Of a DNA stretch of 64,000 bases, positions 35,080 to 38,999 are shown piece by piece (within the stretch, counting starts at the first letter, position 1; each line of letters starts with the position of its first letter). A program made the translations under genes and the position numbers. The notes under the pieces were generated by a model. The model had not been told where the DNA came from. It did no database searches and worked only from the letters and a program-made list of their open reading frames with translations. Origin of the DNA: Burkholderiales bacterium (GTDB lineage Bacteria; Pseudomonadota; Gammaproteobacteria; Burkholderiales; Thiobacteraceae); the NCBI GenBank assembly GCA_023511995.1, contig JAIMAL010000001.1:62001-126000 (forward strand), written 5' to 3'.

Positions 35080-35856
35080 TCAGGCGGCCTGGCGGCGGGC
35101 GAAGTCGCTGGCCAGCAATTCCTCGAGGAAAGCCTGGTAGTCGCGCGCGCCGCGACAGTTGGGGGCATGCTGGAAGACGTTCTTGCACAGGGCGGGGCTT
35201 TCCGCCACGCGCACGTCTTCGCAGATGGTGGTGCTGCACAGATCTTCGCCGAAGCGGGCGCGCGCGGCAGCAAGGATTTCCCGGGCCATGCGCCGGCGGC
35301 GGTCGAAACGGGTGATGAGGTAGCGCCGCGGCAGACGTCTCTTCAACACGTGTTCCAGGGCCTTCAAGGTCTTTTCCACCTGCTGGGCGCCGTTCAGGGC
35401 CAGGAAATCGGTGGAAATGGGCACCACCACCAGATCGCAGGCGAACAGCGCATTGAGGGAAAGCACGCCCAGCATCGGACTGCAGTCGATGATCACCGGC
35501 GCATTGGGGCTCACCAGGGCTTCCGCGCGCAGACTCGTGGCGAGCCGGGTGACGATGTTGTAGCTCTTGCCGAACACCGCATCCGCCTTGGCCAGATCCA
35601 GATGGGCGGGGATGAGCCGCATGCCACCAGCCACACGGACCAGCTCGGTGAGGGTGCGGCTGCGTTGAAAATAGGCGTAGAGACTCTGCTCGCCGGAGTC
35701 TATGCTGACACCCAAGGTGTGGCTCAGGTGGCACTGGGGGTCGAGGTCGATGAGGAGCGGACTTTGCCCGCGCGCCGCCATCGCCGCGGCGAGATTGAGG
35801 CTGGTGGTGGTCTTGCCCACCCCACCCTTCTGATTGAAGATGCTGATGACTGCCAT
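35080..35856 (-). CDS. parA: ParA-family ATPase, orphan
   Basis: 258 residues. Deviant Walker A KGGVGKTTTS near residue 10, second motif VIIDCSPMLGVLSLNAL near 120, and VVPISTDFLALNGAQQVEKT near 145 define ParA/Soj. No parB, chemotaxis or pilus-pole gene is adjacent, so its cargo is unknown; it could position a protein complex rather than DNA. AGGGGGG precedes the ATG. It stands alone between convergent rssA and a divergent amidohydrolase remnant. Confidence 0.87.
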   Translation of the reverse strand: MAVISIFNQKGGVGKTTTSLNLAAAMAARGQSPLLIDLDPQCHLSHTLGVSIDSGEQSLYAYFQRSRTLTELVRVAGGMRLIPAHLDLAKADAVFGKSYNIVTRLATSLRAEALVSPNAPVIIDCSPMLGVLSLNALFACDLVVVPISTDFLALNGAQQVEKTLKALEHVLKRRLPRRYLITRFDRRRRMAREILAAARARFGEDLCSTTICEDVRVAESPALCKNVFQHAPNCRGARDYQAFLEELLASDFARRQAA

Positions 35857-35947: not shown

Positions 35948-36292
35948 ATGGGCGCTAACTTTGCTCAGGTGTCTCTCCGCCGGCGGCTCCTCGCGTGGCT
36001 CGCGGGGCTTTTGCTATCGTCGGTCTGCGGGGCACAGGGGTGGGTGGACACGCACCTCCACCTGGATCAGGAACGGCGCCTGCGCCCGGAGTGGCTGGCG
36101 CGCATCAACCAGTTCCCGGACCGTTTCCTTTTGGGCAGCGACGCGTTCCTGCGCGTCCCCCGCGAGGGAAGACGGCGCGCCGGGGAACTGCTGGCCCCCA
36201 CCCTGTCCATTGCCGAACAATTGCCGGAGGAGCTGGCGCGCCGCGTCGGCTACGAAAATGCCCAACGACTCTACCGCAGGCCCGCGTTCTGA
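35948..36292 (+). pseudogene. Internally deleted secreted amidohydrolase
   Basis: 114 codons open throughout. It begins with an export signal (RRRLLAWLAGLLLSSVCGAQG) and the metal-binding opening strand WVDTHLHLDQ of TIM-barrel amidohydrolases. It then passes within about ten residues to the usual C-terminal end: RPEWLARINQFPDRFLLGSDAF and LPEELARRVGYENAQRLYRRP. The middle of the barrel, normally some 150-200 residues with most metal ligands, is missing. An in-frame deletion is the simplest reading; the product cannot form the barrel. The next gene overlaps its 3' end by 35 bases. Confidence 0.7.
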
Positions 36293-36752
36293 TTCACCGC
36301 CCGATGTCGCGGCCCTCCTTTCCGCGTGTCGGCCGCGCACCCTGCTGCTTTTGGGCATTGCGGAGGGTGTGAGGCCTCCCGCGGATTGTGTGGTCACCCA
36401 CTGCCCCGCCGGGGAGGTCGGCGGTGCACTCGACGGGGCCGCCCGCTTCGACGTGGTTTTCGTCCGCGGGGTGCTGGAGGCGCTCAACAAGGTGGAGGGT
36501 CTGCGCCTGCTGTGCCGGCTGCGGGATTTCCACACTTCCCGCCTTTACGTGTGGGTCCGCCTCGATGCCTGGGAGGAAAACGATTTGTTCGGGCTCGGCA
36601 TGGAGCGCCTCGCCGTCTGGCAGGAGGAAGGCCAAGCCCACGCCCTCTTCCGTTTCGACATCGCCACCTACAAGCCGGCCCCGGAATGGTTCAACGCCAA
36701 ATACTGGGCGCATCCCGAATTGTGGGACAAATACCCCTGGCTACCCTCCTGA
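36258..36752 (+). CDS. DUF6231-like protein, methyltransferase-fold remnant
   Basis: 164 residues. RTLLLLGIAEG, RFDVVFVRGVLEAL and LRDFHTSRLYVWVRLDAW recall a reduced Rossmann-like methyltransferase fold without a clear SAM loop. The end, YKPAPEWFNAKYWAHPELWDKYPW, matches my memory of the DUF6231 family. Function unknown. The ATG at 36258 overlaps the preceding remnant and has a weak ribosome site. It is convergent with the FHA gene. Confidence 0.68.
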   Translation: MPNDSTAGPRSDSPPDVAALLSACRPRTLLLLGIAEGVRPPADCVVTHCPAGEVGGALDGAARFDVVFVRGVLEALNKVEGLRLLCRLRDFHTSRLYVWVRLDAWEENDLFGLGMERLAVWQEEGQAHALFRFDIATYKPAPEWFNAKYWAHPELWDKYPWLPS

Positions 36753-36765
36753 ACGGCGGCCGGCG

Positions 36766-37734
36766 TCAATCCAGCGCGCCGGAATCAAGGCGCGGCACGA
36801 TGGCGCGCGCCTCCTCGGCGAAACGGGCCGGGCTTTTGGCCTTGCCGAGGGCAAAGGCCGGCGGCTTGAGTTCGCCCGGATAGGGCAGCTCATCGCTGAA
36901 TTCCTGCTGCGCTGCGTAGTCGGAAAGCGCCGCCATCCCCACCAGCGCCGCGGCAGACAGAAACGCCGTCACTCCCACCACCCGTGGCGTGAGCAGGGTG
37001 GCGAACCGCAGATGGCCATAAAGGGCAGCCGCCGCCACCACGATGGCCGCCACCTCGAAGACGAGATCGGCGGACATCTGGGCGGAAAAGGCAAAGGCGT
37101 AGTATTGCGCGGCGGTGTCGAGGAGAAAGAAGCCCACCACCGCCGCGCCGGCAATGGCCAGGTGGGGCACGAAATACGCATGGTGGGCAAAGCTGCGGCT
37201 CACCAGCGCCCACACCCCCGCCCACACCGGCAGGGCAACGGCGAGGGGCACTGCGGAGGCGAGGAGTTGCTGCGGACTCATCACCTCCGCGCTGCTTTGC
37301 ACGTGTTCCAGCACCATGAGGCCCAGGGCGAGCATATAGGTCAGGGCCGCGCCCGCGCTGTGGGTGAGCCAGCGGGTGGCGGGGTTCAACCCCAGATTGT
37401 CCCGCCGCGCGGGCGGTACCTGGAAATCGGCGCGGCGCAGACGGATGAGGGTGTGCCCCAACCGCAGCAGGCTTTCCCCGGCCAACGGTTGGCGGGTGAT
37501 GCGGGTCAATGCCGGCAGGAGAAAGGTGCCGTTGTCGCTGGCGAGATCGACGATGACCGGCTGGCCCGTTTCGTCCAGTTCGAGGCGGGCGTGGTCGGGG
37601 GAGACGAATTCATCATCGAGGATGATGTCGTTGTGGTAGGCGCGCCCGATGGAAACCGGGAAGTGGTCGAGGCGCAGCCGCTCGTGCACCCGGCCGGATT
37701 TGTCCAGTACCTCCGCCACCATCAGCGGTTCCAT
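36766..37734 (-). CDS. FHA-domain membrane protein
   Basis: 322 residues. An FHA phosphopeptide-binding domain occupies about 20-100 (FPVSIGRAYHNDIILDDEFV, SPDHARLELDE, LASDNGTFL), followed by about six hydrophobic helices (130-285) and a short cytoplasmic-type tail. No kinase or phosphatase gene is adjacent. Its start overlaps the 3' end of the secreted protease gene by 13 bases on the same strand, so the two are co-translated. GGGGAGCAGGCC precedes the ATG. Confidence 0.85.
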   Translation of the reverse strand: MEPLMVAEVLDKSGRVHERLRLDHFPVSIGRAYHNDIILDDEFVSPDHARLELDETGQPVIVDLASDNGTFLLPALTRITRQPLAGESLLRLGHTLIRLRRADFQVPPARRDNLGLNPATRWLTHSAGAALTYMLALGLMVLEHVQSSAEVMSPQQLLASAVPLAVALPVWAGVWALVSRSFAHHAYFVPHLAIAGAAVVGFFLLDTAAQYYAFAFSAQMSADLVFEVAAIVVAAAALYGHLRFATLLTPRVVGVTAFLSAAALVGMAALSDYAAQQEFSDELPYPGELKPPAFALGKAKSPARFAEEARAIVPRLDSGALD

Positions 37735-38999
37735 GGCCTGCTCCCCTCGCTGAAGCTTTCCAGATAATGGCGGGCGAAGCGCCGCGCATTGTCCTCGGTG
37801 ACCCCACCCAGGATCAGGGTGGTGACCAGGCCCCGGGTGGGGGCGTTGAGGGTGGCCGCGCGCAGCACCGCATCATAGAGGCCGGGCACGGTCTTGTAGC
37901 GGCGCAGACATAGGGCGGCCTTGAAGGTGAGGCTGCCGTGGCGCACGAAGTCCGTATGGCAGGCGAAGCGGGAGACGTCTTCCCGCTCCGCGGGAATCTT
38001 CTCGTAGGGTTGATTGAATTGCGCCTGATACAGGGCATAGAAGCGGAAGCGGTTGATGTTGCGGCCGACGGAATAGTCGTGCTGATAGTGAATCATGCCC
38101 GTCTGCTGGGTGCGCGAGAGGTAGAGGTCATCCTCGGAGGAACATTGCTGGGTGACCTGCTCCACCACCTGGCCGGGCTCGCGCCGGGCATCCCCCCAAC
38201 ACCGCAGAAAGGAAGCGATGCGCCCGGGCACCTGGTATTCGCCGAGGCGCGTGGTGGCAAGGGGTGTGGCAAGCAGCGTTTCCACATAGCGGGCCTGGTT
38301 GGCGATGAGGTCGTGGCTTAGCAGCCGGCGCGCCGCCTCGGCGGTGAGGGGGGTGCGGTCCGGGGTGCGGGCCAGCAGCGCCGCCACATGGCGCGCCGGG
38401 ACAAGGAAGCTCACCTGGTTGCCGGCGGTGGCCACATTCACGCCCACCACACGCCCGTCCCCGAGCAGCGCCGGCCCACCACTCATGCCGGGGTTGAGGG
38501 AGCCGGTGAAGTGGATTTTCTCGTAGAGGGAGTGCTGCAGCAGGCCGTTGTAGGTGCCTTCGACGATGGTGAATCCCAGATCGAGGGGCGTGCCGATGGA
38601 GTAGACCCGCTCCCCCACGGCCACCGGGCCGGTGGCAAGCAGCAGGTGGCCGCGGAAGGGCAGGTCTGTCGCCACCAGGGCGAGATCGTGCACCACGTCG
38701 AAGTTCACCAGATGCAGGGGCGCGAGCCGGCCATCGGCGGTCAACACCTCGCCCCGGTAGTGTGCCGGCTTGTGCACGAGATCCGCGATCACGTGATAGT
38801 TGGTGACGATGAGGCCGGAAGGCGAAGCAACGAAGCCGGAACCCACGCCCGCCTTGGCGCCGGAGGAGGCCTCCAAGATGCGCACCTGGACGATGCGATC
38901 CTGGTAACGGCTGAAGATTTTTTGCGTCTGCGCGGCGGCGCAAGGCGCCGCCAGCCCAAGCAGCAGGAGGGAAAAGCAGAAAAGTCGCAAGCGGTGCAT
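37722..38999 (-). CDS. Secreted trypsin-like serine protease with C-terminal extension
   Basis: 425 residues. Sec signal (LRLFCFSLLLLGLAAPCAAAQ), then a chymotrypsin-fold domain with His in TNYHVIADLV (near 67), Asp in VVHDLALVATD (near 107) and Ser in NPGMSGGPALLGDG (near 172). No PDZ domain follows; residues 225-425 form an uncharacterised region with several cysteines (FLRCWGD, TQQCSSEDD, RFACHTDF, ALCLRRY). It probably acts in the periplasm. It is translationally coupled to the FHA-membrane protein downstream. Confidence 0.88.
   Translation of the reverse strand: MHRLRLFCFSLLLLGLAAPCAAAQTQKIFSRYQDRIVQVRILEASSGAKAGVGSGFVASPSGLIVTNYHVIADLVHKPAHYRGEVLTADGRLAPLHLVNFDVVHDLALVATDLPFRGHLLLATGPVAVGERVYSIGTPLDLGFTIVEGTYNGLLQHSLYEKIHFTGSLNPGMSGGPALLGDGRVVGVNVATAGNQVSFLVPARHVAALLARTPDRTPLTAEAARRLLSHDLIANQARYVETLLATPLATTRLGEYQVPGRIASFLRCWGDARREPGQVVEQVTQQCSSEDDLYLSRTQQTGMIHYQHDYSVGRNINRFRFYALYQAQFNQPYEKIPAEREDVSRFACHTDFVRHGSLTFKAALCLRRYKTVPGLYDAVLRAATLNAPTRGLVTTLILGGVTEDNARRFARHYLESFSEGSRPWNR

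Follow-up and report, generated by a model that had tools for sequence, protein, structure and literature searches.

Two overlapping genes on the minus strand of the window (the whole stretch of 64,000 nucleotides of Burkholderiales DNA analyzed here) raise the question of whether a secreted protease and a membrane protein with a forkhead-associated (FHA) domain work as one unit across the inner membrane. The original prediction described two same-strand open reading frames that overlap by 13 bases. Both reading frames are present, and the overlap lies at 37722-37734. The layout of the pair is as follows:

37722-38999, minus strand: gene for a periplasmic S1C (HtrA-like) serine protease of 425 aa, assigned from the open reading frame, Pfam and the conserved triad
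36766-37734, minus strand: gene for the FHA-membrane partner of 322 aa, assigned from the open reading frame, the Pfam FHA match and structure model mb82b250bcb9e
37722-37734, minus strand: the 13-base gene overlap, from the open reading frame coordinates
37741-37748, minus strand: GAGGGGAG, inside the protease gene, 6 bases before the partner ATG

In every pair that we examined (37/37), the protease gene contains an in-frame start of the partner, 4, 10, 13 or 16 bases from its own 3' end. Since this layout is conserved across all 37 pairs, a chance overlap of open reading frames was rejected. The stretch GAGGGGAG ahead of the partner ATG, within the protease gene, would suit translational coupling of the two genes.

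The co-occurrence of the two genes was analyzed in 300 genomes of the order. The protease query found matches in 294 of them, mostly in the protease domain only, while full-length relatives, with the C-terminal half covered, were found in 34 genomes, one of which (G113) has two. In all 35 loci of these 34 genomes, the window included, the FHA-membrane gene lies directly downstream on the same strand. For the reverse search, the query was the partner's membrane region, which starts near residue 109 and excludes the FHA domain. This region was found in 35 of the 300 genomes, namely the same 34 and G236, a 70% complete genome in which the partner match is a contig-edge fragment. Extra partial partner matches at a contig end in G271 (C19) and over 87 positions in G254 (C35) belong to genomes that also carry the pair.

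A set of 398 Pseudomonadota genomes, which shares three genomes with the order set, gave the same picture: the cysteine domain found in the C-terminal half of the protease is carried by 19 genomes, and the partner by the identical 19. The partner has the FHA domain in 18 of these and lacks it in G495. A twentieth partner match (G374) covers 48 positions with three stops at E 4.7e-4 and is spurious. Because alignments A1, A3 and A5 include sequences from the genomes searched, those matches are partly by construction, and what is informative is the absence elsewhere together with the agreement of both lists. The original prediction suggested a transmembrane signaling or quality-control unit, to be checked by neighborhood conservation, and the partner stands beside the protease in 34/34 order genomes. 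Rare co-occurrence, which had been named as the refuting result, is contradicted by these 34/34 genomes and by 19/19 Pseudomonadota genomes.

The same pair was found in a Chromatiales MAG (L042) and a Thermodesulfobacteriota MAG (L043); at a further locus of the latter bin (L044), the contig edge falls inside the protease. The observed range of the pair thus extends from the window's order to further lineages within its class and phylum and to one Thermodesulfobacteriota MAG. In the class of G420, with 48 genomes searched, the cysteine domain was found only in the two genomes already known to have it. Three further loci (L079-L081) are related in the S1C domain only; they have different C-terminal regions, with neither the cysteine domain nor the FHA-membrane partner.

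The wider neighborhoods of the pair differ between loci. A larger operon was rejected, since the neighbors beyond the pair are common mainly within the window's own family. In that family, a ParA/BcsQ-like ATPase gene (window 35080-35856, minus strand) keeps its place beside the pair in eight loci, and a DUF6231 gene (window 36297-36752, plus strand) does so in seven. Between these two in the window lies a secreted-looking open reading frame of 114 aa (35948-36292, plus strand). Its match to the Amidohydro_2 profile is confined to the profile's C-terminal end, and it is perhaps a gene remnant. A plasmid-borne module was rejected because 0 of 443 matching plasmid records reach 80% query coverage. 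A defense system was also rejected, as the PADLOC match RT-Protease_XI (39.3 bits) covers the protease domain only and the partner matches nothing.

The protease was divided into three regions:

38931-38999, minus strand: signal peptide, about residues 1-23, from a hydrophobic N-terminus seen here and in aligned homologues, with the cleavage site placed by eye
38370-38915, minus strand: trypsin-like protease domain, residues 29-210, from Pfam Trypsin_2 and structure model m0f94a40c2185
37749-38357, minus strand: C-terminal cysteine domain, residues 215-417, with invariant C267, C286, C347 and C364 and no Pfam match

The prediction of a trypsin-like protease was borne out by the Pfam Trypsin_2 match at residues 53-187 (E 8.5e-24). 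The catalytic triad H69, D105 and S173 is invariant in 63/63 aligned proteases, which comprise the 35 order loci (34 genomes), 15 other Pseudomonadota, 12 of family f69 and L042. The predicted structure (mean pLDDT 89.7) has an HtrA/Deg fold over residues 15-215, and HtrA1, DegS and DegP were matched at Z of about 25-27; the best match is HtrA1 (Z 26.8, rmsd 2.3, 191 residues). In the trypsin-like fold and the Ser-His-Asp triad, the protease agrees with the HtrA/Deg (S1C) group.

The C-terminal half had been predicted to bear cysteines, and indeed C267, C286, C347 and C364 are invariant in the same 63/63 proteases. These four cysteines may form two disulfides. In the predicted model, this half is a run of strands plus two helices. 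A two-repeat origin, prompted by the strand pattern, was unsupported by a half-versus-half profile comparison (probability 1.7%). Pfam and PDB sequence searches with the cysteine domain found nothing credible, and in structure searches with the whole protease model, all matches were filled by the protease domain. Sequence profiles detected no Pfam PDZ match at E<=1 in the window protease or in 17 C-terminal domains. As read from the sequence, the cysteine domain of about 200 residues stands where HtrA proteases carry PDZ.

The partner was likewise divided into three regions:

37480-37656, minus strand: cytoplasmic FHA domain core, residues 27-85, from Pfam, with G30, R31, S45, H48, N68 and G69
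36904-37359, minus strand: five transmembrane helices (126-147, 154-183, 188-216, 219-245 and 250-277), from the model, hydropathy and the positive-inside rule
36769-36903, minus strand: periplasmic C-terminal tail, residues 278-322, from topology, with conserved L289, P291 and F305

An FHA domain and six helices had been predicted for this protein. The FHA domain was confirmed by Pfam at residues 27-85 (E 6.4e-12; 46.2 bits against a gathering score of 20.7), and FHA structures top the Foldseek list for the partner. The helix number had to be corrected to five, on which the model, hydropathy and positive-inside counts agree. The Arg and Asn of FHA domains are residues of the phosphothreonine pocket, and both are present in the window partner as R31 and N68. 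In the 36-sequence alignment of homologues, R31 is kept in 32/36, H48 in 33/36 and N68 in 33/36. Alanine or cysteine often replaces the FHA serine S45. The 36-sequence alignments leave out L043, L044 and L079-L081 from the protease set, the truncated L074 from the FHA set, and L015, which duplicates L053.

Two other identities of the partner were rejected. For YscD/SctD of type III secretion, the NCBIfam type_III_yscD score is 13.7 bits against a cut-off of 86, and the Yop-YscD_cpl match (33.4 against 33.2 bits) covers the FHA fold itself. For type VI secretion TagH or gliding GltG, the scores are far under the cut-offs.

The partner model (mean pLDDT 87.3) consists of the FHA domain, five long helices and the tail, and hydropathy peaks concur. 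In the order set, lysine plus arginine residues per protein number 2.5 before TM1, 2.0 between TM2 and TM3 and 2.4 between TM4 and TM5, as against 1.1 in the TM1-2 loop, 0.1 in the TM3-4 loop and 0.9 in the tail. Since these residues are commoner in the first three segments, the FHA domain is predicted to be cytoplasmic and the tail periplasmic. The other two sets follow the positive-inside rule less clearly, their tails having higher counts (1.5 and 2.3). The odd number of helices likewise places the C-terminal tail and the protease on one side of the membrane. The tail residues L289, P291 and F305 are widely conserved, including where the FHA domain is lost. The originally proposed arrangement, with the FHA domain inside and the protease outside, agrees with the topology, with the signal-peptide-like N-terminus of the protease and with the canonical residues of the FHA domain.

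The pair was then compared with known systems. HtrA, DegP and DegS (S1C) share the protease fold, the conserved triad and, by the signal-peptide-like N-terminus, the periplasmic location. However, the protease of the pair has a four-cysteine domain instead of a detected PDZ, and its scores are far under the curated cut-offs (62.7 bits against 416.2 for NCBIfam degP_htrA_DO). In mycobacterial MarP (Rv3671c), one chain holds both an S1 protease and a multi-helix membrane part, and the Rv3671c structure 3k6y matches the protease model at Z 24.9 (rmsd 2.4, 195 residues). In the present case the two parts are separate genes with an added FHA domain and cysteine domain, and the NCBIfam MarP score of 54.8 bits is below the cut-off of 250.

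In the DegS/RseA envelope-stress relay, an inner-membrane protein connects a periplasmic HtrA protease with an event in the cytoplasm. The pair is similar in layout, but it has an FHA domain as its cytoplasmic part and no anti-sigma domain. RsgI9 of Clostridium thermocellum (S1C-NTF2, 7sjy), a Foldseek match, has an anti-sigma role, and in it too an S1C peptidase precedes another extracytoplasmic domain; that domain is NTF2-like, and the membrane part differs.

The original prediction did not recognize the pair as described, and we found no such protease/FHA-membrane pair in the literature searched (open-licence papers only). The nearest case is Bacteroides thetaiotaomicron NP_811686.1, an FHA-FHA-trypsin fusion that stands as a single case in a survey table (PMC2605481). 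That fusion joins FHA and trypsin-like domains in one chain, whereas here two genes encode products on the two sides of the membrane. We regard the pair as an envelope protease of HtrA type whose C-terminal domain is new and whose membrane partner is of a new kind, and it looks like an undescribed link of inside kinase signaling to outside proteolysis.

The strict pairing, the gene order and the conserved overlap led us to treat the two genes as a unit. We propose, with a probability of about 0.5, that they encode a periplasmic HtrA-fold protease and a dedicated inner-membrane regulator or anchor with a phosphothreonine input. The partner would be an obligate membrane subunit of the protease that spans the membrane five times, with a cytoplasmic FHA domain and a conserved periplasmic tail. 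The tail or the membrane part would dock on the cysteine domain and in this way hold or gate the protease at the inner membrane. The FHA domain would bind a threonine-phosphorylated cytoplasmic protein, the product of a Hanks-type (perhaps CHASE2-type) kinase, and this binding would then switch or place the protease, so that the kinase would set when or where it acts. In this scheme we infer the contact of both proteins, phosphothreonine binding, the direction of control and the substrate.

In its full form, the proposal is a class of transmembrane signaling with inside-out control of proteolysis in the Gram-negative envelope: cytoplasmic threonine phosphorylation, read by the FHA domain, would switch the periplasmic protease through the five-helix partner with its tail docked on the cysteine domain. 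We put this form forward tentatively. Little is known of what Hanks kinases target in Gram-negative bacteria, and if the proposal is true, Ser/Thr phosphorylation control of envelope proteolysis would join two of their signaling worlds. The hypothesis is directly testable, since neither complete gene turned up on its own and certain lineages have lost nothing but the FHA domain. It implies that the core function survives without the FHA domain and that the phospho-input maps to this domain.

The natural loss of the FHA domain was analyzed in family f69 of the window's class, in which the membrane partner lies downstream of the protease in 12/12 genomes. The FHA domain is absent in 6/12 (L124, L127, L129, L133, L134 and L135), with the membrane part and tail kept, and divergent in the other 6/12 (L125, L126, L128, L130, L131 and L132); L126, not flagged by the FHA model, was judged divergent from its sequence. 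In the partners of L133 and L134, a lysine-rich N-terminal stretch stands in place of the FHA domain. Pfam found an FHA domain in 4/12 genomes, always in the partner, and no other FHA in the 12. Since some lineages keep the rest of the pair with a decayed FHA domain or none at all, the invariant core would be the protease and the membrane protein, with the FHA domain a droppable input. Because a single family is concerned, the loss may represent one or two events.

This loss bears on the alternatives. The partner might be a passive tether, with the FHA domain docking the pair on a phosphorylated cytoplasmic or divisome protein for localization only, so that the protease acts at one site and no signal crosses the membrane. 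Five helices and a conserved tail suit such a role, and the retention of the membrane part in f69 suggests that the FHA domain is dispensable for core function; however, the residues W171, W175, R180, H191 and H241, conserved in the five-helix domain in the order set, exceed what a tether needs, and we consider it somewhat unlikely. Control could also run from outside to inside, the protease cutting the periplasmic tail or loops of the partner and so altering FHA action in the cytoplasm, like site-1 cleavage in regulated intramembrane proteolysis. The tail is periplasmic by topology and among the few features kept where the FHA domain is lost. If the FHA domain were the output, though, the FHA-less lineages (6/12 of f69) should not have kept the protease and the membrane part, and Pfam found no site-2 protease or anti-sigma domain in the pair; the natural loss therefore argues against this route, which appears improbable.

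Rate co-variation was analyzed over 47 loci (without f69, g40, L043 and L074); all partial correlations between domains within loci are positive, which makes them uninformative. Mere co-transcription of proteins with separate roles, for instance a quality-control protease in the periplasm beside an FHA membrane protein of unrelated function, is very improbable. The rate correlations single out no domain pair, but the strict pairing speaks against this reading, as neither gene stands alone in the 300 and 398 genomes save for the G236 fragment and the spurious G374 match, with the neighborhoods differing.

A full Hanks kinase was found in 0/12 f69 genomes, seven having no match and five a weak partial one (E 1e-10 to 3e-14). 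In the same search, all 15 other pair-bearing genomes gave matches at E 1e-20 or better. The FHA domain thus appears to tend to disappear where threonine kinases are gone, as seen in this one family. Two cases count against a simple rule of co-loss. In genus g40 (L063-L065), the FHA domain has lost the Arg and His and mostly the Asn, with the membrane part intact and 9-13 kinase matches per genome. G169 gave no kinase match, although the FHA domain of its pair looks intact. In the order, kinases were found in 33/34 genomes with the pair and 223/266 without it (Fisher p 0.039, uncorrected for relatedness), a weak contrast by which kinase presence separates the two groups poorly.

A linked Ser/Thr kinase had been suggested as a further check, and a kinase motif scan of 58 loci (the L015/L053 duplicate and controls included) found one, at L117, and none adjoining the pair in the window. 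At L117 (5914-12335, plus strand), the protease and FHA-membrane partner genes head a co-directional series that continues with genes for a CHASE2-Ser/Thr kinase of 861 aa (Pkinase E 1.7e-57), a PP2C phosphatase of 270 aa (E 5.8e-12) and another FHA protein. This CHASE2 kinase is a candidate cognate kinase of the pair. In the genome of the window itself, matches to kinase (three), PP2C (three) and FHA (five) were found. They include a cluster of PP2C, FHA, Hanks kinase, PP2C and FHA matches at G000:C11:17530-22414.
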